NCBI GenBank assembly: GCA_947479085.1
Contig: CANJYB010000006.1
Coordinates: 124,001 to 188,000 of the forward strand
Direction: 5' to 3'
Origin: Bacteroidota bacterium
Lineage (GTDB): Bacteria > Bacteroidota > Bacteroidia > 2-12-FULL-35-15
DNA length: 64,000 nucleotides
The notes below the pieces were generated by a model. That model ran no database searches. It was given only the letters and a program-made list of their open reading frames with translations, and was not told where the DNA came from. This document shows positions 8,745 through 60,038 of the stretch, piece by piece. Within the stretch, counting starts at the first letter, position 1. Every line of letters begins with the position of its first letter. The position numbers and the translations under genes are program-made.

Positions 8745-9701
8745 ATGAATGACGATGGATTGAACTTAAACTGTACTATACATTATAATAAATGGGATAA
8801 GTACGTGATTTTATTTGCTAATAATAATGCTGCTGTGTTACTGAGGCTGCCGTTTAAGAATGAGGTGGTGGCTTTTGTGAACTACATTGTGACGGATGTG
8901 CAGGATACTGCTGACAAGGCGAACGTGAACCTGACGGGTATAACTGAAGCGAAACAACTTGCCAAAAAAGCTGCGGCCGATGCTTTCGGAGAAATAACCT
9001 CGAATGCTTATGCTTTTGCTATCAGTATTAATAATACTGAATTGAAAAGAGTGATGAAGGGTTCAACGGCTTCGAAATTATTTAATACAAAGGATGAGAA
9101 TTTTGTATCAGTATGTAATAATCTGAATGAACTGCTTACTCAAACTATAGCTGATTACCCTGTGGCTGCGATTACTTTTTTTACGGCTGCACAAATTACT
9201 GCTGCGATGGTATTGGTTGGGAGTTTTGATATACGGCTTGGGAAATGGAGAGTGGCAAATGTGAATAAGAATAATGCGAAAATAAAATTTGAAACTGACT
9301 GGATGCCTAAAATGGAAGCATCGCTTGTGTTTTTGGAAAGTATGCTGCCAGGAAGTATTACAACTGGTTTTCCTGAATTTGCAAAGGATTTTATAAGTTT
9401 GAAAAAGCTGGATAGAACGGGAGTGAAAGACCAGGGGCTGTTGCCAAGTATTTCGGATTTGAGAACGGGTGCATTGTTTGTAAATACTGCCAGAATGGAA
9501 ACGCTTAATTATACAGGAACACAAAACCAAAAGGTGATGAAGACAAATGACCTTGGGTTGTTTAAATTAATGAAACTAAAATTGGGTGTGTGGACGGTTA
9601 AGTTTTCGGCTCCGGGGTATGAGGACCAAATAGCGGTGTATAGAATTACGAAAAGGAAGGTGTTGAAGCCGGAGATAAAGATGGCGAAGATAATTCCTTA
9701 G
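8745..9701 (+). CDS. Hypothetical protein with carboxypeptidase-regulatory-like C-terminal domain
   Basis: A 318-residue protein with no signal peptide or membrane segment. The first ~230 residues look largely helical and Ala/Asn-rich (for example KQLAKKAAADAFGEI). The last ~80 residues (from about GALFVNTARM) resemble a prealbumin-like beta-sandwich of the carboxypeptidase-regulatory type, with GLFKLMKLKLGVWTVKFSAPGYEDQ-like strands (an interrupted pattern; no catalytic residues). Such domains usually aid folding or binding. The start ATG follows an A-rich tract 41 bases after the promoter -7 element. It is a stand-alone gene; a terminator follows 90 bases downstream. I recall proteins of this type as Bacteroidota-specific and uncharacterised. 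Confidence 0.85.
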   Translation: MNDDGLNLNCTIHYNKWDKYVILFANNNAAVLLRLPFKNEVVAFVNYIVTDVQDTADKANVNLTGITEAKQLAKKAAADAFGEITSNAYAFAISINNTELKRVMKGSTASKLFNTKDENFVSVCNNLNELLTQTIADYPVAAITFFTAAQITAAMVLVGSFDIRLGKWRVANVNKNNAKIKFETDWMPKMEASLVFLESMLPGSITTGFPEFAKDFISLKKLDRTGVKDQGLLPSISDLRTGALFVNTARMETLNYTGTQNQKVMKTNDLGLFKLMKLKLGVWTVKFSAPGYEDQIAVYRITKRKVLKPEIKMAKIIP

Positions 9702-9995: not shown

Positions 9996-12900
9996 TCAAC
10001 ACATTACCACTTTCTCCTCTTCAATATACACCAGCAATTTCTCAGCAACCACATATCCCATTTGTGCCAGCAAATCAGCATAACCAAGAATCTGCACCTT
10101 ATGAGTTGGTTTTTCTTCCCCTGTTTTGTAGTCAATAATAATAGCGGTCTTGTCCTTAAGTATAACCCGGTCCGGTCGGAAAAGTTCGCCAGTAAGGGTA
10201 ATTATTTCCGCTTCGTTTTTAATTAATAAGCCTTCTGCAAAATGAGGTTTCAGTTGAGGAAGGTTAATTATTTTGGTAAGTGTAATAAGTAGATTCTCTT
10301 TCTCTTCGTTGGTTATCCAGCCTTCTGCAGCCATTGATTTTAAAGCAGGTTCCACATCGGCAGCAGTTTTTATTTTTGCCAATGCACTATGCACCACCAC
10401 CCCGTAATCCTTTTTTACCTCTGTGGCCTGGGTGTTCCAGATGCTGGGCGCAGCAGCACGCATTTTAATATTATCCCTCCATTGGTTGGAGTTGAAGGTT
10501 TCGAGTATATAATTAGTTGTTAGTTGTTTGTTGTGTGTTGTTTGTTGTCTGGCGGTGGCGGTGCCGAAAGTATAAACAGTTTTCATGTCCTCCCATTCCC
10601 CTTTTTGCTGGTAGTAAAAAGCCAGCATATCGCTTACAGTACCAAGGTTGGCGGGTGTTTTGCCGGGCTTGCCTGTCAGTACATACATACGTATCTCAGC
10701 CCTTGTCAGCCCTACATACAGCACATTGAGGTTATCGAGCAGGGACTTGTTTACTTCCTCTTCGTATAATTCTTTATAGCCGGTTTCTTCCAATGCTTTA
10801 CTTGCAGGAACCAATGCAGAAGGCAGGTTGGGGATTTTTTCGTTTTCTATATCAATCCACAAACTGTCTTTTCCGTTGGTTACTTTGCTGTTCGAAAAAG
10901 GCAAAATTACTACCGGGAATTCCAGCCCTTTGGAACGGTGTATGGTCATTATGCTAACTGCATCCATGCCCTGCGGCACGATGAGCGAAGCTTTCAGCCG
11001 TTTGTCCTCCCAGTATTCTATAAAGTCGTCCAGGTTATTATTCTTTTTTATTGAAAATAGCAGCACTTCATCCAGGAAAAACTGGATGTAGGCATTGGGC
11101 ACAGCATTGAGTTTGAAAATGCGAATCAACTCTTCGCAAAGCTCGTACAGGGCCATTTTGCTAAGGTGCATCACGCTGAACTCTATCTTGGCTTCGCGCA
11201 AAATAGCCAGCATGCTGGTTTTGTTTTTCAGCAATAACACTTCGTCAATAGAGTGGGAGGGAAGCAGGCGGGCAGCAACCAGGTATTCGAGTATTTCGGT
11301 TTGGGTAATGGTATTATTTGTATTGGCCAGGTATTTCAGCAGGGAATGAATGAAATTAATTTCCTTGGAATTGCTTAATAACAGGGAGTCCGAAGAGATG
11401 ACTTCAATTCCGTTTTCGGTCAGGTAATTGGCCATTTCGCTTCCGTCCGTATTTTTTCTAACCAGTATGGCAATGTCTTTTAACGGAAAACCATCCGCTC
11501 TGAGTTGGTTGATAATATCCAGTGTGCGCACTTTGTTTTCCGTTCTAAATTCTTCACGTTCTCCGGAAATGAACTCTACCTGCACCATTCCGCCTGTGTT
11601 GTTTTCATTAAATCCCTGTTCGAGGTCTTTGTAAATGCCCTGGTATTTTTCGTTTAGTTTATTTCCAAGTGCTCGAAAAAGGGAGTTGTTGAATTCGATT
11701 ACTTCGCGCTTGCTCCGGTAATTATTTTTTAAAACTTCAGGGTTGTGGTTCCTAACCAATGCACCTTGTCGCTCCAGCACCAATACATTATCATTGTGTT
11801 TAAATATTTCGGGAAGCATGGCAAACTGTTCCACTTCTCCGCCTCTCCACCTGTAAATGGCTTGTTTGCCATCGCCCACCAGCATGGTGAAATGCCCTGT
11901 TGCCAGAGAATTATCGATGAGGGGTAATAAATTTTGAAACTGCTGTACAGAAGTATCCTGGAATTCGTCAATTAGATAATTGTTGTACTTCTCGCCCAAT
12001 CGCTCATAAATGAAAGGAATCGGCTCGTTCATTACTATCTTAGCTATCATTTTATTGAACTCCGATATGTGCAGAATATTGTTTTCTGCCTTGTATTCAT
12101 TCAGTAGTTTTTCTATTTCGTTCAGCACTGCAAGCGAATAGATGTTTCGGTTAATCAAACCAAAAACAATAAATTCACTTTTGTTTGTTTCTATATAAGT
12201 GGTGGCAGTTTGGTAAATACTCACCAACCTGTTTTTGATGGAATCAATCGCTCCTTTATCTGAAGCTGTTGCTTTCCCCGCATACCAGTTATCGGTATCC
12301 ATGTTTTTTTGAACAGTGGCAGATGGTTGTAATTTATCCAGCCGCTTATCGGATAAGTAGGAAAAATACTTTGCTATCCCATTGGCGCCTCCGGCAAACT
12401 TATCGTGCTCCACACCTGCATTCTTAATCAGTTCAAGCGCTTCAGTGCCGCATTTGGTAATAAATGCTTCAAACTTTTTTATTTCCCCATTAAGGGTATC
12501 TTTTATTTTAAAAAAATCATCAACCGTTAAGTCCCTTAGTTTATCAATGTATATAGCGCCTTCTTCGGTCAGTAAATTTTTTGCAAAGAGTTTTAAATCA
12601 TTTTCAATATGCCAGCTTTTTTCATCATCGGTTTTGCTTTCGGTGTATTCCACCAATGCCTTGGTAAGTTTTTCATCATTGCCAATGCGGGCCAATAACA
12701 AATCAATGGCCTGGGTAAGCAATTTATCATCGTCCATTTCTATTTCAAAACTCATCGGAATTTTTAAATCGAAAGCAAACGTGCGCACCACTTTCTGTAC
12801 AAAACTATCAATGGTGCCAATTGCAAAGTCGGAATAGTTATGAAGGATAGCGGTTAAAATATGTTGCGCCCTTTTGCGGATAATGGCATCATCCAGTTGT

Positions 12901-29309: not shown

Positions 29310-30467
29310 TTAAAGGTTAAATAAAATTTTTAATTTTCCAACAAATTCAACAACCTTAGTATTGTAATTAAATGGTTTCAATTCAATTCGATTATCTAAT
29401 ACAGATTTCATTGACTCGCAAAGTTCCTGCTCATTTTTTTGGGAAAAGAAAAGAACATTCTCACTTAATTGTTCTTTATGTACTGCAATATCTGATGCAA
29501 TAACAAATTTATTAAGATATTTAGCCTCTTCAATTGAAGTGTTCCAACCTTCAAACAAACTTGGTTGTATCAGGCAAATGGAATTATTTATTAAATCCAA
29601 TTGTTCATTTTTTGGTAAAAAAGAAGTAAATATTAAATCACTCATTATATCATTGTCTTCGCAGTATTTTATTAATTCTTCATAAATTAGTTTGTTTCTG
29701 TTGGTTGACGTATGACCGGTAAATATAACTTTAAAATTCGAATGTGTCTTTTTTAATAGTTTAATTGCCTTTATAACCGTTATGTGGTTTTTATGCGGCC
29801 AGAATTGGTTAGGTACAATAAAATAAGGAGCGTTAATGGAAAATTTATCTAAGATTTTCTTTGAAAGTTCTTTAGAAGGTTTATAATTCATAAAAACAAC
29901 AAAAGGTAATACAAATACTTTGCATTTATATTCCGGAAAAAATTTCTTTAAATCGTTAAAACAATCCAAAGAACTTAGAACAAGTGTATTATTTGGGTTA
30001 TTTAACGTTAGCGAAAAATTTTTGTCAAACAGTTCAATGTAAGACTTCGCAAAATATTCAGGATAATGTTTTTCCTGAAAGTCAGGTTTCCAGAATATTT
30101 TTTCTTTTACATAATCAATTTCACTTCTTGTATTTGCTGGATAAATAATGTCTAAATTTCTTGGGAACTTTGAATCAAAAAACGGAAGTATATTTTTTCG
30201 GAATAGCCTTCTGGAAATTTTATTTACTAATCTCTTAAACGAGCTTTTATAAACATCGGGTGCGTTATAAGTTTCAAGGTAAGGATATTTAATTTCTTTA
30301 ATATCACTTTCCTTAAATAAACCAGTATATATAAGTGTTACATTAGGTTTACTTTTTTCTTCCAGAAGATTAAAACCATTAATAATATTCGACAAATAAA
30401 CAAAAGCCGCATATAATTCCTTTTGGGGCATTTCAGTATAAATTCCTATTTGTTTTCTTTCAGCCAT
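29310..30467 (-). CDS. Glycosyltransferase family 4 (GT-B)
   Basis: 385 residues. The donor-binding half is typical of family 4: APYFIVPNQFWPHKNHITVIKAI, then VIFTGHTS, and SICLIQPSLFEGWNTSIEEA containing the conserved E-x7-E. The N-terminal half is acceptor-specific and unassigned. Its start overlaps the end of the epimerase gene by 22 bases, so the two are translationally linked. Confidence 0.9.
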   Translation of the reverse strand: MAERKQIGIYTEMPQKELYAAFVYLSNIINGFNLLEEKSKPNVTLIYTGLFKESDIKEIKYPYLETYNAPDVYKSSFKRLVNKISRRLFRKNILPFFDSKFPRNLDIIYPANTRSEIDYVKEKIFWKPDFQEKHYPEYFAKSYIELFDKNFSLTLNNPNNTLVLSSLDCFNDLKKFFPEYKCKVFVLPFVVFMNYKPSKELSKKILDKFSINAPYFIVPNQFWPHKNHITVIKAIKLLKKTHSNFKVIFTGHTSTNRNKLIYEELIKYCEDNDIMSDLIFTSFLPKNEQLDLINNSICLIQPSLFEGWNTSIEEAKYLNKFVIASDIAVHKEQLSENVLFFSQKNEQELCESMKSVLDNRIELKPFNYNTKVVEFVGKLKILFNL

Positions 30468-31345
30468 TTTGCGTATGCGGTTAATCCTGCCTCCAGTTTC
30501 GTCTCTGTTTTAAAGCCCCATTTTTCTAGCATTGAAATATCAGATTTCCATTTTTGAGGGTCTCCGGTTTTTATCTTGTTGTTAAAAGAAATAGTTATGC
30601 CCTCATTTAATATTTTGGTAAATAAATTAGCTATTTCTTTAATCGTAACATCTCTCCCGCTTGCAACATTATAACTTTCTCCTTTCATTTCGGCCTTTTC
30701 TATTATTAGAAAAATAGCTTTCATTAAGTCATCGATGTAAATATAGTCACGCGTTTCTTCTCCTGTTCCATATAATTCTATTAATTTGGTTTTCGAAGCT
30801 TTTTGATAGATATCCCAAAATAATAATTTATTTTGCCCTGGGCCGTAAACGGAAAAGGGCCGGAGACTGCACGTCTTGATATTGTACATTTCATGAAATT
30901 CTTTGCAAACCAGTTCACTGTAATATTTGTGCCAGCCATAAGGTGATAGCGGATTTATTGAGGAGTTTTCCTTTATAGGTAAACTGCTGGGATTACCATA
31001 TACTGCTGCACTTGAAATATTAACAAATATACACAAAGGGTTGTGCAGTCTGATCATGTTTAAAACTCTTGAAACCTGCAAAAAATTTGCTTCAAGGTCT
31101 GATAATGGGTCCTGTAAGGAAAAAGTCACACTTGCACTGCCTGACGCAAATAAACAAACGTCAGGCTGAACATCTGTGAAAACCGTTTCATAATTAATTG
31201 TTTGCGGTAAAATTTTATAATAGTTGTATTCGCAATGAGGCACTTCTTTCAAATCAATACCTGAAACTGTCCAGTTTTTTTTCAGGAAATAATCAACGGC
31301 ATGACTACCTATAAATCCTTCTGAACCAATTATTAAAATTTTCAT
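30446..31345 (-). CDS. NAD-dependent sugar epimerase/dehydratase
   Basis: A 299-residue extended short-chain dehydrogenase. The Rossmann motif IIGSEGFIGSH lies at the very N-terminus, the catalytic YxxxK is in YGWHKYYSE, and RPFSVYGPGQ is the following conserved loop. It should convert a nucleotide sugar (4-epimerase or 4,6-dehydratase type; which one cannot be told). I start it at ATG 31345, five bases after the upstream stop; the longer frame to 31390 overlaps the previous gene and adds a non-family N-terminus. Confidence 0.9.
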   Translation of the reverse strand: MKILIIGSEGFIGSHAVDYFLKKNWTVSGIDLKEVPHCEYNYYKILPQTINYETVFTDVQPDVCLFASGSASVTFSLQDPLSDLEANFLQVSRVLNMIRLHNPLCIFVNISSAAVYGNPSSLPIKENSSINPLSPYGWHKYYSELVCKEFHEMYNIKTCSLRPFSVYGPGQNKLLFWDIYQKASKTKLIELYGTGEETRDYIYIDDLMKAIFLIIEKAEMKGESYNVASGRDVTIKEIANLFTKILNEGITISFNNKIKTGDPQKWKSDISMLEKWGFKTETKLEAGLTAYAKWLKENK

Positions 31346-31350
31346 TGTGT

Positions 31351-32145
31351 TTAAGGTTTGAAAATTATTCCTTGTCCGGTAGGAAGACATAAAATTTCAA
31401 CTTTTTTTTCTTTTGCAAATTTATCAAATGCATCTTTCTGGTTGATGTGAACCGGGAAACCATAATCGTCTAAAATGATCACTCCACCCGAAACCACTTT
31501 GTCCCAGAAATATTCGGTAGCTGCAATTTCCGGTTCTACACAATTCATGTCAATTGATAAATAGCAAATCTTTTCTGCTTTACATAAAGGCAAAGTGTCA
31601 GGTACTGCACCCTTTATTACTTCTACATTAAAGGCCGAAAAAGTTTCTTTCACCTGCTGATAAACATCTTTATAACTTCCGAAATAATTATTTATTCCCG
31701 CGCTCTTTTCCTTATCGGATACTAAATCTTCAACAAGGCCGCTAAAGGTATCCAATAAATAAAATTTCTTGTTAGTGGCTGGGAAATTAATGTAATCTAT
31801 TATAGCACGGGAATATGCTCCTGTGTTTACTCCACATTCTACAAAATCTCCTTCCAGTTTTTTTACATAGTCCGCCAGCCAGCAAACAATATATACACGC
31901 CACTGTAAAGTGAAATTATTCCACGGATTTGTTTGCTTAGCCAGATGGTAGGCTTTCGCAAAACGAGGTTCATTAATAAAATCTGAGTTGTTACTGGTAA
32001 TCAGTCCATCCGTTTTATAGGTAGCCCTGCCATTTAATTCATGTGTAAACAATTCGCTGTTATAAAAAATAGTCCTGTAATTTTTTATAAACCATTTGAT
32101 ACGGATTCTGAATAATTTCAGAGATTGTGGAACAATTCCTTTCAA
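31351..32145 (-). CDS. TylF/MycF-family sugar O-methyltransferase
   Basis: 264 residues. EGDFVECGVNTGAYS (SAM motif I), FYLLDTFSGLVEDL, CYLSIDMNC and SGGVIILDDYGFP are characteristic of the macrocin O-methyltransferase (TylF/MycF) family, which methylates sugar hydroxyls using Mg2+; the acidic DDY probably binds the metal. It likely methylates a sugar in this glycan. The start is a TTG at 32145 shortly after the upstream stop. No ATG occurs until deep inside the catalytic domain. Confidence 0.85.
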   Translation of the reverse strand: MKGIVPQSLKLFRIRIKWFIKNYRTIFYNSELFTHELNGRATYKTDGLITSNNSDFINEPRFAKAYHLAKQTNPWNNFTLQWRVYIVCWLADYVKKLEGDFVECGVNTGAYSRAIIDYINFPATNKKFYLLDTFSGLVEDLVSDKEKSAGINNYFGSYKDVYQQVKETFSAFNVEVIKGAVPDTLPLCKAEKICYLSIDMNCVEPEIAATEYFWDKVVSGGVIILDDYGFPVHINQKDAFDKFAKEKKVEILCLPTGQGIIFKP

Positions 32146-32150
32146 AATAA

Positions 32151-32714
32151 TTAATTTGTGTTTTTAATAAACCTGGCCGGATTACCTGCTACCACAGTAT
32201 AGGGTGCCACATCCTTTGTTACTACACTTCCTGCTCCTACAATAGCACCTTCGCCAATTGTTATCCCTTTCAGGATAATTGATTTTGCCCCTATCCACGA
32301 TCCTTTATTAATCCGAATAGATTTTTGTGGTGTCAGTTCCCAGTTATGTTGCTGACCGTTTTTCCAGTCTTGTGTATCATTTTTTCTGATGGCATAGGTA
32401 CTGTTATGGTTATCATTGTCCTGTATCATGCAGTCGTAGGATATTAATACATCATCTTCTACAGTTATATTTAAAGCGCATCCAAGCAAGGTATTGCTCC
32501 CTATAAAAACATTATTACCTATCACTATTTTTGCCTGGGCAGTATAAGTGCTTAAAATTCCTTCTATCAATGAATCCTTTCCAATTTCTATTTTTGAATT
32601 TTTATCTAATTTATTTATGCTCGCTCTTACAATGTCAGTATTTTCTCCTACTGTAACATTGGAAAAATCAACAGGTGTTTTTTTATTAATAAAATTATAA
32701 ATTTTTTTTATCAT
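32151..32714 (-). CDS. Left-handed beta-helix acetyltransferase (WbbJ-like)
   Basis: 187 residues built of hexapeptide repeats (for example [51 protein letters not shown]) ending with the family's AGNPARFIK. It is a trimeric CoA-dependent O-acetyltransferase by family; the His in the DNDNHN loop is the likely catalytic region. It should acetylate a sugar of the locus. Confidence 0.9.
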
Positions 32715-32748
32715 TTATTTATGATGAGATAGAATAAAACGATTCCTT

Positions 32749-33456
32749 TTATTTTTTGCAAATAAACCATCTTCCGTATGAAATACCATCGTGCCAAATC
32801 GAATTTAACATGTATACTTCCTTGAAATTCTTTTTGAATTTAGCAGTCCACCATGCATCCGAATTATTATAAAAAGTCTGAATAGTGGTTGAAGTGCTCA
32901 TCCAACCTTCATTTTCTCCGCTTTTTGAAGTAGGAATCATGTGCATGGAACTTTTTTGAGTAACTCTCGAAGCTTCTGCAATAAATTTTTCAATTCCCTT
33001 TTCTGTAAAATGCTCCAACGACCCGATGGAATAGGAGTAGTCAAAATAATTATCTGAATAAGCCATTTTTGTAGCATCTGTCACCAAAAGGTTGTTTCCG
33101 GCTATTCCTCGGTCCTCTGCTTTCTTAATCAAAAGGTCAGATATATCGCAACCGTAAACATCAAGGTCTTTGTATTTTTTTAAAATGTCGATGGTTACCC
33201 CCGTGCCGCATGCTATATCAAGCACCTTTCCTTTACAGTTTACCAGTAAAGTCTGTATCTCAAGCCAGGTAGTATCAATACCCCAGGTGTCAAGTATTTT
33301 GGCATACTCCGGGTCAAAATACATATCAAGACTTTGTTCATCGTTTTCGTTTTTAGGATACCTGATGATTTGGTTATTATAGGGTTTTAAAATACCTGTT
33401 TTATAACAGATTTTGATAAAAACAGGCGGTATAAGTAATTTTAAAATACGTTTCAT
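32749..33456 (-). CDS. Class I SAM-dependent methyltransferase
   Basis: 235 residues. GKVLDIACGTGVTIDIL is SAM motif I, DVYGCDISDLLI motif II, and FDYSYSIGSLEHF the motif around the catalytic cleft (methyltransferase 11-type). It is placed directly downstream of the exporter genes. In ABC-exported O-antigens such enzymes can cap the chain end and set its length, a role that would fit here but is inference. Confidence 0.88.
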   Translation of the reverse strand: MKRILKLLIPPVFIKICYKTGILKPYNNQIIRYPKNENDEQSLDMYFDPEYAKILDTWGIDTTWLEIQTLLVNCKGKVLDIACGTGVTIDILKKYKDLDVYGCDISDLLIKKAEDRGIAGNNLLVTDATKMAYSDNYFDYSYSIGSLEHFTEKGIEKFIAEASRVTQKSSMHMIPTSKSGENEGWMSTSTTIQTFYNNSDAWWTAKFKKNFKEVYMLNSIWHDGISYGRWFICKK

Positions 33457-33470
33457 TATTTATATAAATT

Positions 33471-34676
33471 TTAATTCCATTTGCAATTAACTATAACACT
33501 GCCGTAATCTCTGCCTTCAAATAAGGCAAACTCTGACCCGGTATCTATTACAGTTATCCTGCATTGTTCTTCATGTATGTCGTAAACAGTTCCATCCGCT
33601 TTGCAAATAGCAAAGTGAAAGGAATATATGTTAGGTGCTATTAAATTTTCCGGAATTCGCAATATGCCTTTACTTAGCATACCATCTTTTTCCAGTTCAT
33701 CAAGGCTTTTTAAAATGGTAAAAACCCTGTTCCCGAATTTGTCTAACAAAGCAATTGACAAAAGTACATCATTTACTTCTTTTTGCCTGCATACATTCAC
33801 ATGCAAATTAATATTTTCATGAAACCCGAAATGAGTTGTTATTTGCCGCTCTTTATTAGCCGTATATATTTCCGAAAAATAAAACTCCTTCTTTGTATTT
33901 GTATCCGGTATAAATTTATTGTTTTCCTCTGAATTATGCTTGCTCGACAGGTAATGATTTATTATCCGGTCACTTGTATCATTCATTTCTACTTTTCCAC
34001 CATTTAACAAAATACTTGTAGGGCAAAGATGGGAAATAGAACCCATATTATGGCTTACAAATAGTATAGTTCTTCCACTTTTACTCACTTCCCCCATTTT
34101 TCCCATACATTTCTTCTGAAATTCAGCATCTCCCACAGCCAGTACTTCGTCAATAACCAGTATTTCAGGCTCCAGAAAAGCAGCCACAGCAAAAGCCAGT
34201 CGTAATTGCATACCGCTGCTGTAATGTTTTAAAGGAGTGTCCAGAAAATTCTCCACTCCCGAAAAATCAACAATTTCATCAAATTTCGAATCTATTTCTT
34301 TTCGTTTCATTCCCAGTATGGACCCATTCAGGTAGATGTTTTCCCTGCCCGAAAGTTCGGAATGAAACCCTGTACCTACTTCCAGCAAACTGGCAATTCT
34401 GCCACGCGAAATTATTTTGCCTGATGAGGGAGGTGTAATTTTAGAAAGAATCTTTAACAGGGTAGATTTACCTGCCCCGTTTTTTCCTATTATTCCAATA
34501 CTGTCTCCCGGAAACACATCAAAAGAAACATCGTTCAGCGCATAAAACTCCTCGGTACTTGCCGTATCGCTTTTAAATAAAGAGGTCAACGAATCGCGCA
34601 AACTTAAATACGATTGCTTTTCGTGACGAATACGAAATCTTTTGGATACATTTTTTATTTCAAGTATAGGTTTCAT
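33471..34676 (-). CDS. wzt: Polysaccharide ABC transporter ATP-binding protein with C-terminal glycan-recognition domain
   Basis: 401 residues. The ATPase domain (about 1-240) has Walker A GIIGKNGAGKST, the signature YSSGMQLRLAFA and Walker B ILVIDEVLAVGD. The additional ~150 C-terminal residues form a beta-rich Wzt-type domain, which in characterised systems binds the modified non-reducing end of the polysaccharide and licenses export. With Wzm it forms the exporter. Its ATG follows the Wzm stop directly. The presence of this domain, together with methyl- and acyltransferases, suggests that export is coupled to a terminal modification. Confidence 0.93.
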   Translation of the reverse strand: MKPILEIKNVSKRFRIRHEKQSYLSLRDSLTSLFKSDTASTEEFYALNDVSFDVFPGDSIGIIGKNGAGKSTLLKILSKITPPSSGKIISRGRIASLLEVGTGFHSELSGRENIYLNGSILGMKRKEIDSKFDEIVDFSGVENFLDTPLKHYSSGMQLRLAFAVAAFLEPEILVIDEVLAVGDAEFQKKCMGKMGEVSKSGRTILFVSHNMGSISHLCPTSILLNGGKVEMNDTSDRIINHYLSSKHNSEENNKFIPDTNTKKEFYFSEIYTANKERQITTHFGFHENINLHVNVCRQKEVNDVLLSIALLDKFGNRVFTILKSLDELEKDGMLSKGILRIPENLIAPNIYSFHFAICKADGTVYDIHEEQCRITVIDTGSEFALFEGRDYGSVIVNCKWN

Positions 34677-35498
34677 TTAAGCCAAATCAGCAAAGTAAGA
34701 TTCTGTTTTTCGGAAATAAAATAAACCAACAATAAAAAAGAATAAAGAAGAAAACAAGCTAATGGAAATCAGGTTACTGTCCAGCGGTTTTTGAATGATA
34801 GCGTGACGAAACAATTCAATGGGTGCATACATTGGATTTAACGCAAAAATGAATCGAAGTGTAGCATTCCCGAGTATAGAAACAGGATAAATAACCGGGG
34901 TTATAAACAGCAAGGCCTGTATCATAAAGGGGATGATATACCTGAAATCTCTATACTTTATATTAAGTGCTGCCAACAATGAACCTAAACCGAAAGTAGC
35001 CACACAGGTAATAAGAATACTGAGTGGCAGAAATAAAAGAAATTGCCCGATAACAACGGACGTATGATAATAAAACAACATCCCGATAAAAATAAAAAAG
35101 GCCATTATAAAATCAAAAAACGAAACCAATACCGAAGAAATAGGGATAATAAGACGGGGGAAATATATCTTTTTAATAATGTTGGCATTGCTTACCATAC
35201 TGTTTCCGGCATTGGATAGCCCGGATGAAAATATATTCCAGATAATCAGTCCGCTCATGGCAAACAAAGGATAGGGAATGGTCAGTTCTCCTGCTGAGGT
35301 TATTATTTTTCCTAAACTAACAGAAAGTAACAAGGTCATGGCAAGTGGCTGAATAACGGCCCATGCAAACCCCAAAACGGTTTGTTTGTATTTTACTTTT
35401 ATATCCCGCCAGGTAAAAAAATAAAACAACTCCCTGTATTGCCAAAGTTCGCCAATACCCAGTGTCAGTTTATTTTTTGGTTTAATTTCGTATTCCAT
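34677..35498 (-). CDS. wzm: Polysaccharide ABC transporter permease
   Basis: A 273-residue ABC-2 type permease with six membrane segments. TWRDIKVKYKQTVLGFAWAVIQPL is the conserved entry of the Wzm/TagG family. It forms the inner-membrane channel for the lipid-linked glycan. Second gene of the operon, one base after the sulfotransferase stop. Confidence 0.93.
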   Translation of the reverse strand: MEYEIKPKNKLTLGIGELWQYRELFYFFTWRDIKVKYKQTVLGFAWAVIQPLAMTLLLSVSLGKIITSAGELTIPYPLFAMSGLIIWNIFSSGLSNAGNSMVSNANIIKKIYFPRLIIPISSVLVSFFDFIMAFFIFIGMLFYYHTSVVIGQFLLFLPLSILITCVATFGLGSLLAALNIKYRDFRYIIPFMIQALLFITPVIYPVSILGNATLRFIFALNPMYAPIELFRHAIIQKPLDSNLISISLFSSLFFFIVGLFYFRKTESYFADLA

Positions 35499-35499
35499 T

Positions 35500-36390
35500 T
35501 TAGTTATTCCACGAAGTTAAATCTTTACCTATCATTTCTTCCAGTTCTTTATTGTAAGGCCTGTAATAATCCACCAAAAACTGCTTTACTTCAGCATTAA
35601 TAGGTTCGTGCTTTTTTTCCGTTTTATTAACATCCCGTAATAACTCTCCGTATTTATATACTTTATGTCCTGGTACAAATCGTTTGATAAGTTTTTTTAT
35701 TGGGTTATGGTTTCGCAACAGGTGTTTAACTGCCCTCGCATAAAAATTCGAACGGGTTTTTTGGGTTACATTATGTTTCATTTCCACGTTAGGCAGAAAC
35801 GAATCATCTATTTTCAGTTTCCTGAATATGGTTTTACAAACCTCCGCTCCGTTATTTTTCAAATCTTCGTAAAGCACTATGTTCACATTCTCTTTCGGAA
35901 ACAATGAATAGATATTTTTAAGGTGGTGTGAATAAAGGCTGTATTCAATAAAAAAGTCAAAATCCCAGGTGTTTTCGTTATTATTCTGGTGTTTTTTTAT
36001 CATTTCCGGCAGGTCCTCAAAATCAAATTTCACGGTCCCGAAGTTTTTCTCCATCAGGTAGGACGAATAGGTTCGTTCTACTGGGTTGCGAAGTATAAAA
36101 ACCAGCTGGCAGTCCGGACTGTTTTTTTTCAATCTCGCCAGGCCATTCATGTCGGTAAACAATCCTGCATTTTTGGCAATTATTTTGGTTTTATCCGTAT
36201 ACTCCTTATGTGCGTAGTATTTTTTAAGAGCTGCAGCCAACCCCTCAGCATACTCTGCCTTGTCAGTAAAATAGCTAAATTCCTTTTGCGGATGGCTTAT
36301 ACATGCAGGGTGTTCGCCCAAATACCTTAATAAAGATGTTGTCCCGGCCTTTTGCGCACCCACTATCATCACATCTATTGGTCTGCTCAT
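35500..36390 (-). CDS. Sulfotransferase domain protein
   Basis: 296 residues. The PAPS 5'-phosphosulfate loop is GAQKAGTTSLL (11-21) and the 3'-phosphate site QLVFILRNPVERTYSSYLM (about 94-112), as in heparan-sulfate-type sulfotransferases. It is expected to transfer sulfate from PAPS to a sugar. As first gene of the glycan-export operon it suggests a sulfated surface polysaccharide. A good promoter lies 20-60 bases upstream. Some proteins of this family act on other substrates, so the target is inferred from context. Confidence 0.88.
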   Translation of the reverse strand: MSRPIDVMIVGAQKAGTTSLLRYLGEHPACISHPQKEFSYFTDKAEYAEGLAAALKKYYAHKEYTDKTKIIAKNAGLFTDMNGLARLKKNSPDCQLVFILRNPVERTYSSYLMEKNFGTVKFDFEDLPEMIKKHQNNNENTWDFDFFIEYSLYSHHLKNIYSLFPKENVNIVLYEDLKNNGAEVCKTIFRKLKIDDSFLPNVEMKHNVTQKTRSNFYARAVKHLLRNHNPIKKLIKRFVPGHKVYKYGELLRDVNKTEKKHEPINAEVKQFLVDYYRPYNKELEEMIGKDLTSWNN

Positions 36391-37073: not shown

Positions 37074-38021
37074 TTATTGTTTAACCACCTTTTTAGTAGT
37101 TATTCCATTTCCTTGTGGTGAGCCTGGCGAACCATCCGTTTCCACTTTAACAAAGTAAATCCCATTTGGTTGGCTGGTTAGGTTTACAGTTGGGTTAGTG
37201 GTTGTTATTATTTCCTGGCCTAATAAGTTGGTTACTTTTATTTCCTTTATTTTCCTTCCTTCTGCACTTAAAGTAAATAATCCACTTGTAGGGTTTGGTG
37301 AAATCAAAACATTATTATTACTTATCTCATCCACTCCCAAGCCACTTCCTGTACAATCCACTATACTTACATCATCCACATAATAAAATGCAAATCCTGG
37401 ATTGTTATTAATAGCTAGCGTATCGGTAGTAACATTTAAATTAAAATTGCCAAGAATAATATATTTCTCACCACCAGTAGCAATGTATTCCCCTGAAATT
37501 AATGTCCAGCTAGTTGTATCAATAATAATATTTGTATCAAGTAGTTGAGGAATAAAAGACAAAACGCTATTAGAAGCGACATAAGTATTAGAAGTTGAAA
37601 GATACATGCCAAAATTATTAGTGCCAACAGAACTTTCTTCAGCCAAATTTATATAAAAACTAACACAATATTTTCGTTGAGAAACTAATATACTATCTAA
37701 TTGCACTTGTAAGTATTCTCTAAAAGTACTGTTACTTAAATATGTAGTTACACCTGCATATCCATTTCCAAAATGGGGGATTTCGTATCCTCGGGTGTTT
37801 AATGGTACGCCCAGCCCACTGGAAATGGCGCAAGTGTTAAATAAGTCAGGACTTCCAGTAGAAGGACTATCCCAAGGAGATGCAATACCAATATTTATAG
37901 CTCCATAAGAAAAATTACAACTATCTATTGCTTCAAAGCTCCAGTTAGGCACTATATTTTGAGAATAAAAGTAATTATTAAACCCAATAATTATAAAAAA
38001 CAAAATTATCTTTCCTTTCAT
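37074..38021 (-). CDS. T9SS type A cargo protein, copy 2 of a duplicated pair
   Basis: 315 residues (from ATG 38021). A signal peptide (about 1-20, ends YFYSQ) is followed by a beta-sandwich domain (NIVPNWSFEAI ... PWDSP ... FNTCAI ... REYLQVQLDSI), then IVDCTGSG and a T9SS tail from LISPNPTSG. The N-terminal domain resembles carbohydrate-binding or jelly-roll lectin-like modules. It is clearly paralogous to the gene at 38794-39750. The ATG overlaps the stop of the fragment gene upstream by one base (TAATG). Confidence 0.85.
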   Translation of the reverse strand: MKGKIILFFIIIGFNNYFYSQNIVPNWSFEAIDSCNFSYGAINIGIASPWDSPSTGSPDLFNTCAISSGLGVPLNTRGYEIPHFGNGYAGVTTYLSNSTFREYLQVQLDSILVSQRKYCVSFYINLAEESSVGTNNFGMYLSTSNTYVASNSVLSFIPQLLDTNIIIDTTSWTLISGEYIATGGEKYIILGNFNLNVTTDTLAINNNPGFAFYYVDDVSIVDCTGSGLGVDEISNNNVLISPNPTSGLFTLSAEGRKIKEIKVTNLLGQEIITTTNPTVNLTSQPNGIYFVKVETDGSPGSPQGNGITTKKVVKQ

Positions 38022-38767
38022 TATTTGCAAATAATTACTTTACCTGAATACACTCGGTTCTCATTAATGAATACTTGATAAAAATATATACCATTTTGCA
38101 ATTGTTTTTCGTGAATGTTTATAAATGTTGCATCGTTCAATAATTTATAAGAACTTATTTGTTTTCCAAGTAAATCATATATTAAGATATAACCAGTTTC
38201 CTTTTCTGATAGTTTATAACTGAATTGCATTTCTCCTCCGTTCGGATTAGGGTATAATTTATAGTTTGTAATTTCATCATTTGACACCATGTGATTATTT
38301 ATGGGCATTGATTTAGTCATTTCTAAATCTATTACATCTATAAAAAGCATAATACGTGACATAAAAACCGCATCTCCTCCATGTATTGGATTTTGATAGG
38401 CAACATTCTCTAATTGTGAGACTTCTGAACTGTCATATCTATATCTATCTTCCATACTCAGTGACGTGTCAGAATTATAGCGAATTTCGTTAAGATAAAT
38501 AGAGTTAACAATCTTTTGGTTTTCCTCCATCGAACATCTTGTTGGTAAATTTTGATTCATTAATATTGCCTGTGTTGTATCAGCTATTGTTGAATCTTTG
38601 ATGTATGCAATTATCTTTTGAAAACTGCCTATATTGTTGTATCTTGTACTGTCGTAAAATTTTTGATATAAGGTATCATCAGTAGTACCAAGTGACAATA
38701 AAGAGGTATCTGCTTTTAATGCTTTATAAGCATAAATAGAATCTCTCATTTTAAATTCAAAATTCAA
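38021..38767 (-). pseudogene. Duplicated C-terminal fragment of the 2234-residue T9SS protein
   Basis: About 248 residues that match the last ~250 residues of the giant protein at 39765-46469 (shared blocks FEFKMRDSIYAY, EENQK, VNSIYL, AYQNP, GGDAVFM, RIMLFID, YKLYPNPN). It has no signal peptide. Homology continues for about nine codons upstream of the TTG at 38767 and then runs into the end of the preceding gene with no start codon, so the frame has lost its 5' part. The first ATG is at 38749. The sorting domain is intact but could not be reached by Sec without a signal peptide. It may be translated by coupling but is probably a remnant. Confidence 0.8.
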
Positions 38768-38793
38768 TGTGTCGTAGTTATTTTGATTCCTTA

Positions 38794-39750
38794 TTATTGT
38801 TTTACAAACTTTGTTCTTGCGGTTTTTTTCTCACTTTGTACTTCCACAAAGTAAATACCAAGGGGTAGATTGCTAATATCTATTTCTGTCTTTGCTTTTG
38901 TTATAGAAGATGAAAAAACTATTTCTCCTAAAACATTATAGATATACAAGGGCTTCTTTCCCTCTCCATTAGTAAGGGTTAGAGTGAGAATTGTTGTTGC
39001 AGGGTTTGGAAATATTTCTATTCCTTCATTCTCTGTTAATTCTCCAACTCCAAAACCACTTCCTGTACAATCCACTATAGTTACATCATCTATGTAATAA
39101 TACGACCAATTCTCAATTCCATTCATTGCCAAAGTATCTGTTGTAGCTTCTGTATTGAAATTACCGATAATAATATATTGTTCTCCTCCTTGTGCAATAT
39201 AAGTTCCTGAAACTAATGTCCAACTTGCAGTATCACTTATTATATTGGTATCAATTATTTGAGGAGTTAAATTTAAACGATAAGCATTAGGAATTTGCGT
39301 ATGTGTTGCTGAAAAATACAAACCCATATTGTTTACCGCATAATCATTTCCGTTAGACTTACTTGTATAAAAACTTACACAATACATTTTATTAGCTATT
39401 AATACACTATCTAATTGTACTTGTAAATATTCCCTTAGATTTTGTCCTTGACCAAAAATAACTTCTCCAACATATCCATTTCCCGTATGCGGGTATTGAT
39501 ATCCATAATAATTAGTAGGAACATTGAACTGCTGGGATGGAGGAATAGCGCAAGTGTTAAATATATCGGGAGAACCAACTGTTGGACTATCCCAAGGAGG
39601 AACGGAACCTAAAGCAACACCCAAAGAATCACAAGCTGTAACATTTTCAAAACTTGGGTTAGGCACAAGATTCGGTTGTGAAAAAATTTCTTCCCTTACT
39701 CCTGAAAAAAGTAAAACAAAACAAATAATATATTTGAAAACTGTTTTCAA
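38794..39750 (-). CDS. T9SS type A cargo protein, copy 1 of a duplicated pair
   Basis: 318 residues. A signal peptide (about 1-25, ends IFSQ) is followed by the same jelly-roll-like domain as the protein at 37074-38021 (shared LVPNPSFE, PWDSP, FNTCAI, REYLQVQLDSVL, YCVSFY, SWTLVSG, YYIDDVTIVDCTGSG). The T9SS sorting domain starts at IEIFPNPATT and ends FVKQ. The start is a TTG at 39750, 14 bases after the stop of the giant gene; the signal peptide requires it. No catalytic residues recognised. Confidence 0.85.
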   Translation of the reverse strand: MKTVFKYIICFVLLFSGVREEIFSQPNLVPNPSFENVTACDSLGVALGSVPPWDSPTVGSPDIFNTCAIPPSQQFNVPTNYYGYQYPHTGNGYVGEVIFGQGQNLREYLQVQLDSVLIANKMYCVSFYTSKSNGNDYAVNNMGLYFSATHTQIPNAYRLNLTPQIIDTNIISDTASWTLVSGTYIAQGGEQYIIIGNFNTEATTDTLAMNGIENWSYYYIDDVTIVDCTGSGFGVGELTENEGIEIFPNPATTILTLTLTNGEGKKPLYIYNVLGEIVFSSSITKAKTEIDISNLPLGIYFVEVQSEKKTARTKFVKQ

Positions 39751-39764
39751 TATAGCAAAGATAG

Positions 39765-42700
39765 TTATTTTACTATTATCAACTTATCTGCTTTCACTTT
39801 TTCATCTCCCACCTTAATTACAAAATAATAAGCACCTCCACTCAATTCTACGGCATTTATTACTGTTGTTTTATTTTCAGAAGACAATGATTGTTGTTTT
39901 ACCAACCGCCCTGTCATATCATAAATACTAAATAAACTTGTTTTATTTCCTTCAATAGAATATTCTAATATCATATTTCCATCATTCGGATTAGGGTATA
40001 GCTTGTAATCTTTTATTTTCTCCAGTGGAGTATTATTTTTTATTGATAAGTATCTATTTGTCATTTCAATATTCCTTATATCAATGAAAAGCATGATACG
40101 AGCCATAAACACAGCGTCTCCTCCGCTCATTGGGTTTTGATACGCTATGTCTTCTAATACTGAAATTTCTGTACTATCGTATTGATATCTTTCTAAATGA
40201 GCAGTATCACTAATGTACGCTACCTCGCTCAAATAAATTGAGTTTACTGTTTTCTGGTTCTCTTCTATCAAACATGTTGGAACAACATTTTGATTAATTA
40301 TGTTTGCTTGCGAGTTATACCCTAAATCTTTTATTTGTTGAAATTTGCCAATATTACTATTCATCGCATAGTCATAAAAGTTATTATACAAAGTATCATC
40401 GGATGTGCCCGTTGATAACAATGTGGTATCAGATTTTAATATTCCATAAGCATAAATAGAATCACGCATTTTAAATTCAAAATTCAATGTATCATAATTG
40501 TTTTGGTTCCTTACTATTTTTCCTATTCTTCTTTCACGTATGTCAATTATATCTGCAATATCTAATGAACGAAGGTCGTCACAAGGGCTTCCTCCGGTAG
40601 CTGTATCAAAAGTAATTCCATAAACATATAAATTCGAAGTAGGATAAGGATCTGTATTTAATCCTGAAATAAAATGCCAGTTAATTGTATCAGTACTACC
40701 TATAATATATTTTGTATTACTATACCATTCATTACCTGTCGAATTACCACCTGCACCGGGAAACTGGTCCCCAATTACTGCATTATCAAAATTAAATCCA
40801 TAAGCGCAAGTATCTAAGAAATTACAGGCAAACATACTGTTATTACAACTGCTTGTTGAATAAATACCGCTACCCATATTTATTAATATGTTTTTATAAA
40901 CATAACTTTCAGGGCTATCGTCCACAGATATTCCAATCAAAGTGCTTGATAAAGTTGTATCAACGGGAACCCCAGTTTGCCTTATCGTATTATACTTCAC
41001 TACAGCACTGTCGCATTCTGCTATACTTATTCCGCAATAAAAACCGGTTGCATACGAAGTATCTGTAAAATTTACTTCGTTGCTATCCACTGTTGCCCAA
41101 TAATCCATACCTCTTACTTCAATGCCTGTCCCTTCTTTAGGAATATCAATCACATTATTAAAAATAATCAATGTAGTGTCTGTGCTGCTCGCGCCTGTGC
41201 TCGGGTTACCTGCATAAATTCCCCAATTGGCAAGGTTTGCAAGAGTTATATGGTTTTCGTTAATAGCCACCGTATCGCTTCCCATATCATAACAAACCAC
41301 ACCCCTTACCATATCATTCATATTGTTTTCATTAATGGTTATTTTTTTCTTCAAAGCCCCATCTATATACACTCCGTCACTATTTATGTTCAGAAACTCA
41401 TTCCTTATAATTTCATCATTCAGGTTCCTCGAATATACGCCCGTGGTGCAGGTATCAAATTCGTTGGGTAAATTTGTACCCATACCTCCCACTATCAGGC
41501 TCGATACTTTAGTTTTAGGCCCGGAATGTATAGCATAGATAGCCGTTCCGCTCAAATCTCGAACTCTTGAAACATGCGTAATGTTTTCAAACACATTGTT
41601 CCATACTGCCATATTACTGCCTATCGACCGTATTCCATAATCTAGATAGTCAAAAATATTATCTTTATAAGAAAAGGAAGAATCCCCAAAAGGAATAGGT
41701 CTCGCATACGTAATTTCTTGTATCTCTATACCCGTAAAAGACCTTACCCGGCTCAATAACCTATCCTTCTGAAAACTCGAAACATTCCCATTACTGCTAT
41801 AATCAGCAATAATATAACCTGCCATCGAATATATGGGCATTACCGTATACAACGAATCAAAGTTTCTACACGTAAAAACACTGTGATGCAAATTATAATC
41901 GTTCGTTTGCTGCATAGTTCCGCTGTACTTGGTCAAAAGCATTCCAGTACTATTTTTGTTAAATATAGTGCTGTCAATTTCATAATGCCCACCACCTGCT
42001 GAAGAAATAGCATTAACAGCATCTTCAATTACCGAAGTTTTTATAATTACCTTTTCCGTTTTCCCGTTGATTTTTATTCCATCCCATAACGTATCGCATC
42101 CCCGTAAGTATGAACCCAAAATTGTTAACGTATCATGCGGCAACAATACTATCTCACTTAGCTCGCCTAGTTTTATGTCACAATTTTTAAGAATTAAATT
42201 CTGATCTACATAAAAACTGCCGTTAATCCCAAATTGCTGCGCCTGTATTTTTACTGTACTTCCAGTTATACTGGCAAAGCCGGTTCCAAGCAGCGGCACT
42301 ACTTTAGAAACAGAATCGATACTTACCGGATAAGTAACCACATAACTATTAACTGCATCTCCTAGGCTTATATTATCGTCTCTGTCAAACAAGCAGAATC
42401 TATAATCAGGATACACTGTCTCTGGAGTACAGGGCATACTATTAACAGTTAAAGTTGTACTATCCACACATCCATTAATAGTAGTAGCTGTTACAGTATA
42501 AGTATTCGGAACCAATATAGTACCAAAATTAGCGGTATCACCATCCACGGTTTGAGAAACAGGAGCCGGACTCCAACTATACGTATAGGCACCGGTAGCC
42601 CAAAGTACAAGAGCTCCCGGCAGGCAGTCTGGGTAATTAATCGCAACCACATTAAGATCTGTAGGATAAACCAACACCGTCCCTACCGCAGTACCTTTAC

Positions 42701-46469: not shown

Positions 46470-46649
46470 GTTTAGGAGTTTTGAGTAAATACATTTTTGG
46501 ATTTCTATTGGCTAAAATAAGTTATTTGTTTCAATAAACAATTTTTTTTATCAATTAATTATTTTCAAGAAATCATCTCATTTCCCAGCACTTTAATCAA
46601 CTAACTCTTCCCTGAAATTCTTTTTTCGTCTGTTTCAATCGTTTTAGTG

Positions 46650-46962
46650 TACCGAACGATTGTAACATGCACCAAATAAATGCTGTTGGTGTATATTACC
46701 ATCGAAATGGTGACAATAAGAATGCTGATGGTGTAAGTTACAATGGAAATGGCGACAGTAAGAATGCTTTTGTTTACTGTTACAATCGAAACAGTAACAA
46801 TAAATATGCTGATGGTGTATGTTGCAATGAAAATGGTGACAATAACAATGCTTTTGGTGCATGTTATAATGGTAATGGTGTCAATATAAATGCTGATGGT
46901 GAACATTACGATTGAAAGTGTTACCATTTCGATTGTTTGTGTTACTGTTTCGATTGTAACCT
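46650..46962. repeat. 21/42-bp tandem array with inverted end (array 2)
   Basis: Five clear 42-base units (46696-46905) each consist of two different 21-base halves, approximately TTACAATGGAAATGGTGAC.. and TAAGAATGCTGATGGTGT... Degenerate copies extend to both sides. At the right end the orientation flips: 46940-46960 is the exact reverse complement of 46779-46799 (21 of 21 bases). Each A-half has a short dyad (GTTAC...GTAAC in the best copy). It lies upstream of the giant minus-strand gene, leaving 46470-46649 without other features. Confidence 0.93.
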
Positions 46963-47506
46963 GCTTTTTTCCGGTTTTTATAATAAACTACCCGATAAAG
47001 TATGAAGCAACGAACATGAAATTTTAATGAAAAAGCAGAAAAACGTAAAAAAGTGATGTTTTGGTATAAAATGGATGAAACAGACCATTAACAGGCAGTT
47101 TAAAAGAAATGGTCGCTTCCCATAAAAAAAATCCGGACTTCGTTTTTTTTTGACCTCGTTTTTTGACAAAAAATTAACAAAATGCGGTGAATAAAATTCC
47201 GCTATTCACTGCAATATATTTCTAGATTTATGTCAACCACTTTATTGAGGTTCAGCGTTTATGAATTTTTTAATTGTTGATAAATCGTCTGATAAATAAT
47301 GCCCAAAAAAGTCATGTTTTTTTTGCAGAAAATTGACGTAAATTCGTAGTCGAATGACGGAAACACCAAAAGATATGGGGGGAATAAAAAAGAGTGAAGA
47401 TTTTCAGGAAATAAAAAAATAATGGAACCCTGAAATTTTTAATAAAAAGAGGAAAGGATTTTTAAAAACGAAATGAATACTAACAATAAATAAACAACCA
47501 AAAAAA
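46963..47506. other. AT-rich intergenic stretch, no gene recognised
   Basis: About 540 bases with poly-A and poly-T runs. A 22-codon ORF at 47354-47422 (MTETPKDMGGIKKS...) is too short and unsupported to call. No tRNA, hairpin or recognisable promoter was seen. The run of A before the ATG at 47507 is typical for leader sequences here. Confidence 0.6.
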
Positions 47507-47891: not shown

Positions 47892-48503
47892 ATGAAATTA
47901 GTAAAAATTCCAAAAATGAATTCAATCCCCATGTTGCTGGTCGAAGGACAGTCGCTGGTGGATAAAATGATTGCTTCTTCCTGGTTTCCGGGCACCACCA
48001 GCCAGACCACAGCAGCACAAACTGCAATAACAGCGCTGGACGCAGCAGCTGCTACTGCACAAAGCGGAACGCCTGCCGATACACAGGCAATGTATGTATG
48101 TGCAGAAACTACACGAGTAAAAATCAGGGTGTTGCTTTTAACAGTGGACACTGTCGCTATCAACAATCCGTCTAACAGTCTTGCAATCATTTCAGCAGCA
48201 GGTTTACAGGCTAAAAGAACAGGTTCAAGAAACATTCAAACCATAGCTGTAAAAGCAGGAACGGATCCAGGAAGTGTGGTGGTAAGGGTAAAAGCTCACA
48301 AACGCTTTTCGTACAAAATTCAGATGCAGAAAGGTAACAGTGTGGAACCTACAGGCTGGGTGGATGTTACTGTTACCACTGTGGTTAGCATTCCGGTAGC
48401 CGGTTTGGCGCCATTAACCCAGTATTGGTTCAGGGTAGCGCTTATTAAAGGCTTATCACAGGGAGCTTATTCAAATCCTGTAAGTATAAGCATGCCGGCA
48501 TAA
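47892..48503 (+). CDS. Hypothetical protein with C-terminal fibronectin type III-like domain
   Basis: 203 residues, no signal peptide. The N-terminal ~110 residues are helical and Ala/Thr-rich (AAQTAITALDAAAATAQSG). The C-terminal ~90 residues form an FnIII-like sandwich with conserved GLAPLTQYWFRVALI and a final AYSNPVSISM. I recall proteins of this architecture (Ala-rich helical region plus FnIII) as common, uncharacterised Bacteroidota proteins, often in multiple copies. ATG preceded by an A-rich tract. A strong terminator follows. Confidence 0.82.
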   Translation: MKLVKIPKMNSIPMLLVEGQSLVDKMIASSWFPGTTSQTTAAQTAITALDAAAATAQSGTPADTQAMYVCAETTRVKIRVLLLTVDTVAINNPSNSLAIISAAGLQAKRTGSRNIQTIAVKAGTDPGSVVVRVKAHKRFSYKIQMQKGNSVEPTGWVDVTVTTVVSIPVAGLAPLTQYWFRVALIKGLSQGAYSNPVSISMPA

Positions 48504-59643: not shown

Positions 59644-59937
59644 TCATTTTCAGGACACTGCAAATGACTTTCATTACTATGCAAACGACTTTCAGCCCGC
59701 TGCAAATCATTTTCATTACTATGAAAGTAACTTTCATTGCAATGAAAATGACTTTAATTCCACTGTAAATGATTTTCAGTCTACTGCAAATGACTTTCAT
59801 TACTATGCGAATGATTTTCATTACTATGCGAATGATTTTCATTACTATGCGAATGACTTTCATTACCATGCGAACGATTTTCATTACTATGAAAATGACT
59901 TTCACTCCTATGCGAATGACTTGCATGACGATGTAAA
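59644..59937. repeat. 21-bp tandem array, fourteen units (array 3)
   Basis: Fourteen consecutive 21-base units with consensus TGAYTTTCATTACTATGC followed by RAA. The unit junction contains the dyad TCATT...AATGA, so adjacent units can pair as short hairpins. The middle units (59791-59874) are almost identical, while the outer units diverge, which suggests growth from the centre. It lies between carB and the ABC ATPase gene and fills most of the 420-base gap; 59938-60038 holds no other feature. Confidence 0.97.
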
Positions 59938-60038
59938 TTAACCGGCAAACCAAATAAACTACCTTTCTTTGATAAACATTTGTAACAAATCACTAATATT
60001 GTCCGTCTTATAAGCAACAAAAATTTAAAAGCCATAAA

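Follow-up and report, generated by a model that had tools for sequence, protein, structure and literature searches.

Introduction

In Porphyromonas gingivalis, surface proteins exported by the type IX secretion system (T9SS) have been described to undergo domain rearrangement and allelic exchange, with adhesin, catalytic and fimbrial variants, and their C-terminal domain (CTD) is presented in the same account as a conserved end domain of about 80 residues (PMC5266723). A different arrangement is reported from Salmonella Typhimurium LT2, in which an rhs orphan is a downstream fragment without initiation or export signals, tied to a partner gene of its own (PMC3967940). The present study deals with a cluster of T9SS genes in a Bacteroidota bacterium, which comprises a giant gene, two smaller genes and, between these, an open frame resembling the end of the giant. 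The cluster is situated in a stretch of 64,000 nucleotides, hereafter called the window (G000:C6:124001-188000, where G000 denotes the window's own genome of 4.28 Mb in 50 contigs). Throughout the text, CTD stands for the T9SS sorting domain, tail for the end of a giant (tail domain plus CTD), head for the part of the giant before the tail, and cargo for the second T9SS gene behind a tail; the tail frame detached from any head is referred to as the orphan.

The cluster probably arose through an old local tandem duplication, after which ectopic recombination would have swapped the T9SS sorting tags. As described for P. gingivalis (PMC5266723), T9SS-exported surface proteins would be diversified via recombination, but in contrast to that account the exchanged unit would here be the CTD itself, even between genes with unrelated bodies. 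Compared with the T9SS type A domain defined by TIGR04183 and PF18962, the CTDs of the window are ordinary; what is new is a history that appears separate from that of the bodies. With the orphans of Rhs and contact-dependent inhibition (CDI) systems (as described in PMC3967940) the locus has in common a 3' fragment devoid of start and export signal, its position beside a partner, and a short stretch in which main tail and orphan are homologous. However, the tail of the window contains a conserved domain without match to polymorphic toxins, and the partner, unlike a Rhs/CDI immunity protein, carries a T9SS sorting domain, which argues against an immunity role. By analogy, the window locus would work like a Rhs/CDI orphan cassette without being one. 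A recombined variant of the locus was not seen in this assembly, and no search at the level of reads was made.

Tandem blocks with conflicting relatives

On the minus strand the giant is followed by cargo 1, the open tail frame, which has no evident start, and cargo 2, which together form two head-to-tail blocks of 1.72 kb, each composed of a tail domain of about 150 residues, a CTD and a cargo gene (Table 1). The initial annotation had recognized two consecutive blocks of about this length with the same gene order and with protein similarity in both parts, and this is confirmed by the open reading frames and by ungapped direct repeats, which link the blocks at a spacing of 1714-1744 nt (for example 75% identity over 191 nt between 38611-38801 and 40331-40521; two others extend over 151 nt with 72% and over 65 nt with 83% identity). 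Between the blocks, protein identity amounts to 50% for the tails (259 columns) and 47% for the cargos (283 columns), which is far beyond chance. Tail and cargo each belong to families with many copies in G000.

The mark of a simple tandem duplication, namely copies that are mutual closest relatives along their full length, is not displayed by the two blocks. In a DNA comparison that included 12 other tail-plus-cargo blocks, the top match of the giant's block is the orphan's block (413 bits), whereas the orphan's block matches the blocks of the sister genomes G004 (486 bits) and G005 (414 bits) before that of the giant, which ranks third (413 bits). At the protein level, tails of G004 and G005 are nearer to that of the orphan (67% identity) than the giant's tail is (50%), and in the tree of whole tails (37 rows) a common clade of both copies is rejected (log-likelihood difference 54, p 0.003). 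The two cargos, expected under the initial annotation to be closest to each other, turn out to have nearer relatives elsewhere when whole proteins are compared: cargo 2 shares 60% of its residues with a cargo gene that stands alone on contig C1 but 47% with cargo 1, and for cargo 1 the identity is 51% both to G000_C2_6764 and to the C1 gene.

Once the proteins are split into domains, the conflict is located in the T9SS sorting domains. Separate trees of tail domains and tail CTDs were calculated with 29 rows each, six far or long-branch rows having been removed by name and two by a 60% filling rule. The cargo trees hold 38 rows, which remained of 43 that passed length (290-360 codons), closed frame and score after five far rows had been taken out by name; longer or broken cargo genes were excluded. 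Among the tail domains, both copies of the window are found near the tails of G004_C63, G005_C377 and G015_C2, in a poorly resolved region, and the test does not reject them as sisters (p 0.37). One clade of seven rows (90/82) contains the bodies of both cargos, and here, too, a sister relation is not rejected (p 0.20). The CTDs, in contrast, stand far apart, and a single clade is rejected for those of the tails (p 1.8e-5) as well as for those of the cargos (p 2.1e-5). One tandem duplication followed by divergence, as proposed in the initial annotation, is thus compatible with the tail domains and cargo bodies and fails for the CTDs. An old tandem duplication is likely for the former, but the blocks have very probably not simply diverged in place.

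The giants carrying the tails of G004_C63, G005_C377 and G015_C2 have heads that resemble the head in the window. Over its last 580 residues the window head is 52.7% identical to G004_C63 and 43% to G015_C2, and 55% identical to G005_C377 over 115 residues; the next relative, G014_C318, follows at 32%. Since the window head most resembles heads which bear a CTD of the orphan's type, it is the CTD of the giant that appears to be the foreign part. The single-copy state anticipated for sister genomes does occur, as G004:C63 and G015:C2 carry head, tail and one cargo.

A CTD tract in common with a distant gene

Identity between the 3' ends of cargo 2 and of the lone C1 cargo gene (G000:C1:21451) is 97% in the final 150 aligned nt and declines to 94% when 220 nt and to 92% when 240 nt are taken into account. 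The tract includes an identical run of 81 nt at its longest and one 24-nt insert in cargo 2, while the bodies of the two genes are only 51% alike. Where both proteins have the same residue, the codon is identical in 62 of 67 cases in the CTD against 55 of 99 in the body; as a baseline, codon identity in 150 random CTD pairs averages 47% (standard deviation 11, maximum 71%). The likeness ends at the stop codon, past which 24 of 60 positions agree. A bounded tract of high identity that extends to synonymous sites within otherwise diverged genes is the mark of ectopic gene conversion, and cargo 2 and the C1 gene display it, with a left edge less sharp than the right one; further pairs in G000 and pairs in G004 display it as well.

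The 5' sides of the two loci are alike as well. On its 5' side and in the same orientation, the C1 gene has 440 nt that match the 5' flank of the giant with 93.9% identity, including an array of 42-nt repeats. Two copies of this flank are present in G000, and none was found in the other six genomes searched. The cluster and the C1 locus thus have both ends in common and differ in the middle, which holds 9.3 kb in the former and one cargo body in the latter; this C1 body is a diverged relative of the bodies of both cargo 1 and cargo 2. Tandem arrays with units of 21 or 42 nt are located at three places of the window (46678-46957, upstream of the giant, 7952-8134 and 59659-59938). A similar pair of arrays, 86% alike, lies upstream of a giant on C2 (G000:C2:109821-110362) and of a lone cargo on C5 (C5:95894-96435). 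As a speculation, and a doubtful one, the T9SS genes of the genus might be organized in exchangeable cassettes, in which 5' repeat arrays and 3' sorting domains would act as homology arms for swapping entire interiors of surface proteins between loci. The cluster and the C1 locus would then represent two states of one site with ends that are 92-94% alike, and the conserved orphan tails a standing archive to be reused through recombination with the head of the giant.

Conflicts between CTD and body in other genes

Discordance between CTD and body is not confined to the window. The survey of G000 covered 208 CTD genes, for which 150 of 341 candidates were scored in the search and other places were added, so that the genome may hold more; it yielded 199 pairs with homologous bodies (84 genes). 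Synonymous codons differed between CTD and body at p<0.001 in 8 of 198 pairs, against 1 of 198 when two halves of the body were compared as a control, and the mean amino acid difference was 14.9 points against 7.3 for the body halves. In G004, where 146 of 150 listed places were entered, 100 were covered and 108 CTD genes were examined, the codon contrast reached this level in 2 of 69 pairs and in none of the 69 controls, with mean amino acid differences of 14.2 and 7.0 points, respectively. Bodies without BLASTP match are joined to CTDs with an amino acid identity of at least 60% in 35 pairs of G000 and 13 pairs of G004. The reverse case, in which the proximal body is at least 60% alike and the CTDs at most 47%, is represented by 18 and 5 pairs, respectively.

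Among ten CTD-sharing pairs picked for high CTD identity, seven drop to 40% or less directly past the stop codon. Where the bodies of such pairs are unrelated, identity climbs from 40-57% to at least 80% no more than about 60 nt from the start of the CTD, with the exception of C7. The latter contig of G000 harbors tandem copies whose tail domains are 83% and whose CTDs are 48% identical, and at this locus the CTDs of the orphan and of the cargo gene following it, whose body is unrelated, are 75% alike. Between loci on C18 and C46 of G000 (L058, L057), stretches of 144-179 nt are 94-99% identical and occur in several copies each.

Tail and cargo across genomes

Among loci chosen from the better matches of a search, 37 tails were collected from 11 genomes (one of which, G042, comes from another family). 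Three of these are cut by contig ends, including the only one of G026. In all 34 assessable tails, which come from 10 genomes, a cargo stands directly behind the tail, and tail and cargo therefore form an old unit. The pieces of G000 that were examined contain ten copies of the tail domain and a larger number of cargo domains, with 13 cargos away from any tail. The window, G000:C7 and G015:C13 each have the succession of tail and cargo twice in tandem; the order at G005:C377 is cargo, tail, cargo.

Between the tail stop and the partner start of both tandem copies at G000:C7 and G015:C13, inverted repeats were noticed by eye (L047 at about 11080-11120 and 9530-9571; L101 at about 9240-9290 and 10993-11040); none was seen in the window. 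On contigs C31 and C5 of G000, tails cut at their 5' ends (L043:9412-13755, L046:11337-12646) adjoin sequence that by eye is repeated or transposase-like; insertions as the cause of the cuts are a guess made in the same way. C31 also carries four cargo frames in a row, one of them broken.

The orphan tail

The orphan tail appears to possess neither a signal peptide nor a clear start, yet it shows no decay. Between the tail domains of giant and orphan in the window, synonymous divergence (dS) is 1.9 with a ratio of nonsynonymous to synonymous change (omega) of 0.16, or 2.5 and 0.10 with a narrower cut. The corresponding comparison gives dS 0.90 and omega 0.12 at C7, and giant and orphan at G015:C13 differ by dS 1.02 with omega 0.08 over 229 codons. 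The orphan has accumulated 8 private changes in the tail domain, against 12 in G004_C63 and 16 in G005_C377, its two nearest relatives, and 5 in the CTD against 15 and 12. It is either translated, or was orphaned recently, or is maintained through recombination with expressed tails. At C7, the orphan has an ATG three bases past the stop of the partner. A date for the duplication was sought from synonymous sites and given up, as dS is near saturation.

Both junctions of the orphan in the window are tight: its frame overlaps with the last part of cargo 1, and its stop codon with the start of cargo 2. Near the end of cargo 1 (window 38794-38830) lies a run of seven A residues, at which a -1 shift would join cargo 1 in frame to the orphan tail. 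Such a frameshift fusion was considered and dropped: the frame is open and in register, with no further support.

Gene products and surroundings of the cluster

All four products (P0001-P0004) end in a T9SS type A sorting domain that scores above the curated cut-offs of PF18962 and TIGR04183. In each of them this domain is the sole Pfam family at an E-value of 0.01, and the remaining NCBIfam matches lie far under their cut-offs, nearly all of them ending in the sorting domain. The tail domain, which is conserved across the tail family, has no toxin match in Pfam or NCBIfam. Signal peptides and start codons were judged by reading the sequence; by this measure giant, cargo 1 (from the assumed TTG) and cargo 2 appear to have a signal peptide and the orphan frame appears to have none.

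Table 1. Features of the T9SS gene cluster in window coordinates.
Feature	Position	Strand	Remarks
Giant T9SS protein gene, 2234 aa	39765..46469	-	Head type as in G004:C63, G015:C2, G005
Tail domain of the giant, about 150 aa plus linker	40008..40529	-	Same clade as orphan tail domain
First 24 codons of the tail domain, giant	40440..40511	-	92% amino acid and 85% nucleotide identity with orphan 38720-38791
CTD of the giant	39768..40007	-	Por_Secre_tail; by tree foreign to the locus type
Cargo 1, T9SS protein, 318 aa	38794..39750	-	TTG start assumed
Orphan tail, open frame, 269 codons	38021..38830	-	First ATG at codon 28; comprises a tail domain and a CTD of the locus's own type
Stop codon of the orphan tail	38021..38023	-	One-base overlap with the ATG of cargo 2 (TAATG); read from the sequence
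Cargo 2, T9SS protein	37074..38021	-	ATG at 38021; signal peptide by inspection
CTD tract of cargo 2 common with the lone cargo gene G000:C1:21451	37074..37330	-	Left edge approximate
5' flank of the cluster with 42-nt repeat array	46612..47051	-	93.9% identity with the 5' flank of the C1 gene

Structures predicted from shallow alignments reached a mean predicted local distance difference test score (pLDDT) of 49 for cargo 2 (4 sequences) and 46 for the orphan tail (3 sequences). In these low-scoring and hence uncertain models the tail domain is helical and the cargo mostly beta. The models are too uncertain for a fold search, and 'jelly-roll' stands as the term of the initial annotation for the cargo body. 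A sequence search of solved structures with cargo 2 and the orphan tail returned matches in the CTD part only in both cases.

The genomic surroundings were compared by means of the RdgB flank in 19-kb pieces of G004, G005 and G015. The flank is conserved in all three, and no cluster is present in these pieces, so that positional orthology via this flank had to be abandoned. Near RdgB in G005 (G005:C192, L147:5808-6942), a broken lone cargo gene is found where the window has the cluster. For several genes that adjoin the cluster (29310-36390), including a sulfotransferase-like one, relatives stand in matching order next to RdgB in G005 and partly in G004. A protein of about 203 residues encoded at 47892-48503, with an fn3 match below the cut-off, has relatives in all seven genomes searched; in G015, one copy adjoins a giant and another lies near RdgB.

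Origin of the cluster

In the history that we favor, a tandem duplication would have copied the end of the giant, tail domain plus CTD, together with the partner cargo standing behind it, whereby the second tail came to lie as an orphan between the two cargos. CTDs would then have been replaced through gene-conversion-type ectopic recombination among dispersed T9SS genes, that of the giant long ago and that of cargo 2 more recently, via the tract common with the lone C1 cargo gene. We infer that tandem duplication rather than insertion made the second block and that CTDs were exchanged through homologous recombination. The role of the CTD as an export tag that PorU removes may explain why exchange is tolerated, as one tag could replace another. 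In P. gingivalis, removal of the CTD has been attributed to PorU (PMC4804311). PorU (NF033707) was found above the cut-off in all 4 genomes searched, with 1341 bits in G000.

Several observations weigh against this history. The sister relation of the tail domains and that of the cargo bodies is not rejected, yet without positive support. When the first 24 residues are left out, the tail domains of the window are 60% alike and no nearer to each other than that of the giant is to G005 or G015; in the corresponding tree the giant's domain joins G015_C2 (92/87) and the orphan's joins G004_C63 (91/78), with sisters at p 0.22. G005:C377 is arranged in a way comparable to the cluster, so that the duplication could predate the species or have recurred. 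Dating is weak owing to the near-saturated synonymous sites. No close donor for the CTD of the giant is present in G000 (best match 69% over 162 nt), and its replacement is accordingly read from the trees. The left edge of the tract between cargo 2 and C1 lies close to the linker that precedes the CTD and is more diffuse than the right one; identity in the preceding 30-nt windows is 87, 57, 52, 83 and 73%. Elsewhere, three of the ten selected pairs stay alike past the stop (15/15, 34/60 and 29/60), and the eight significant pairs of G000 are non-independent, coming from few families, with one control pair significant too. Moreover, codon identity was as high as 81% in one of the random CTD pairs of G004, so that high identity alone is no proof.

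The alternative explanations are not all mutually exclusive. A foreign tail-plus-partner module might have recombined behind the head of the giant at the conserved start of the tail, thereby pushing the old pair downstream as orphans, on the pattern of Rhs and CDI loci. This is unlikely, although some of the evidence would fit: it is the orphan and not the giant whose tail is nearest to same-type giants of G004 and G005 (67%), the window head is nearest to heads with orphan-type tails, the CTD of the giant is foreign, and the 24-residue start common to both tails at 92% would serve as a homology handle. However, the remainder of the tail domain in the giant and the body of cargo 1 fall into the local clade, which means that the incoming module would have to stem from the same locus type. 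Tandem duplication with divergence only, the proposal of the initial annotation, is very unlikely to be the full account. Spacing, order and similarity of the blocks agree with it, as does the top DNA match of the giant's block, but the rejection of sister tails and of common CTD clades (p 0.003, 1.8e-5 and 2.1e-5, as above) and the CTD of cargo 2, 92-97% identical to another locus, speak against it.

The orphan could also be what remains of a once complete second giant which lost its head so recently that the tail only seems conserved, an explanation that is compatible with CTD exchange. Such a loss would have to recur recently at three loci, each time leaving an orphan that abuts or overlaps the stop of the upstream partner, and we regard it as improbable even though the frames are open, omega is low at dS of about 1 or more at all three loci, and a recent loss needs no head remnant. 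That draft contigs were mis-joined at near-identical CTDs is scarcely credible. The identical run of 81 nt in the CTDs of cargo 2 and C1 and the start of several contigs in CTD genes would favor such an artefact, but a mis-join swaps flanks and cannot give two loci with CTD ends 92-97% identical and bodies 51% alike; similar conflicts are, moreover, found within long contigs and in G004. Duplication followed by exchange of sorting tags is therefore retained as the probable history of the cluster.

Meaning for T9SS surface proteins

The exchange of CTDs between genes is the more interesting result. Among the titles and abstract openings listed for searches of open-licence literature, no description of CTD exchange between T9SS genes was found. 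T9SS sorting domains serve to recognize and classify exported proteins of Bacteroidota, and if CTDs pass between unrelated genes, phylogenies and orthology calls including the CTD would be misleading. If true, CTD exchange would offer a simple route for sending new proteins to the surface. The pair of tail and partner, together with the conserved orphans, provides a concrete case in which the reshuffling of surface proteins can be tested beyond the oral pathogen for which domain exchange has been described.

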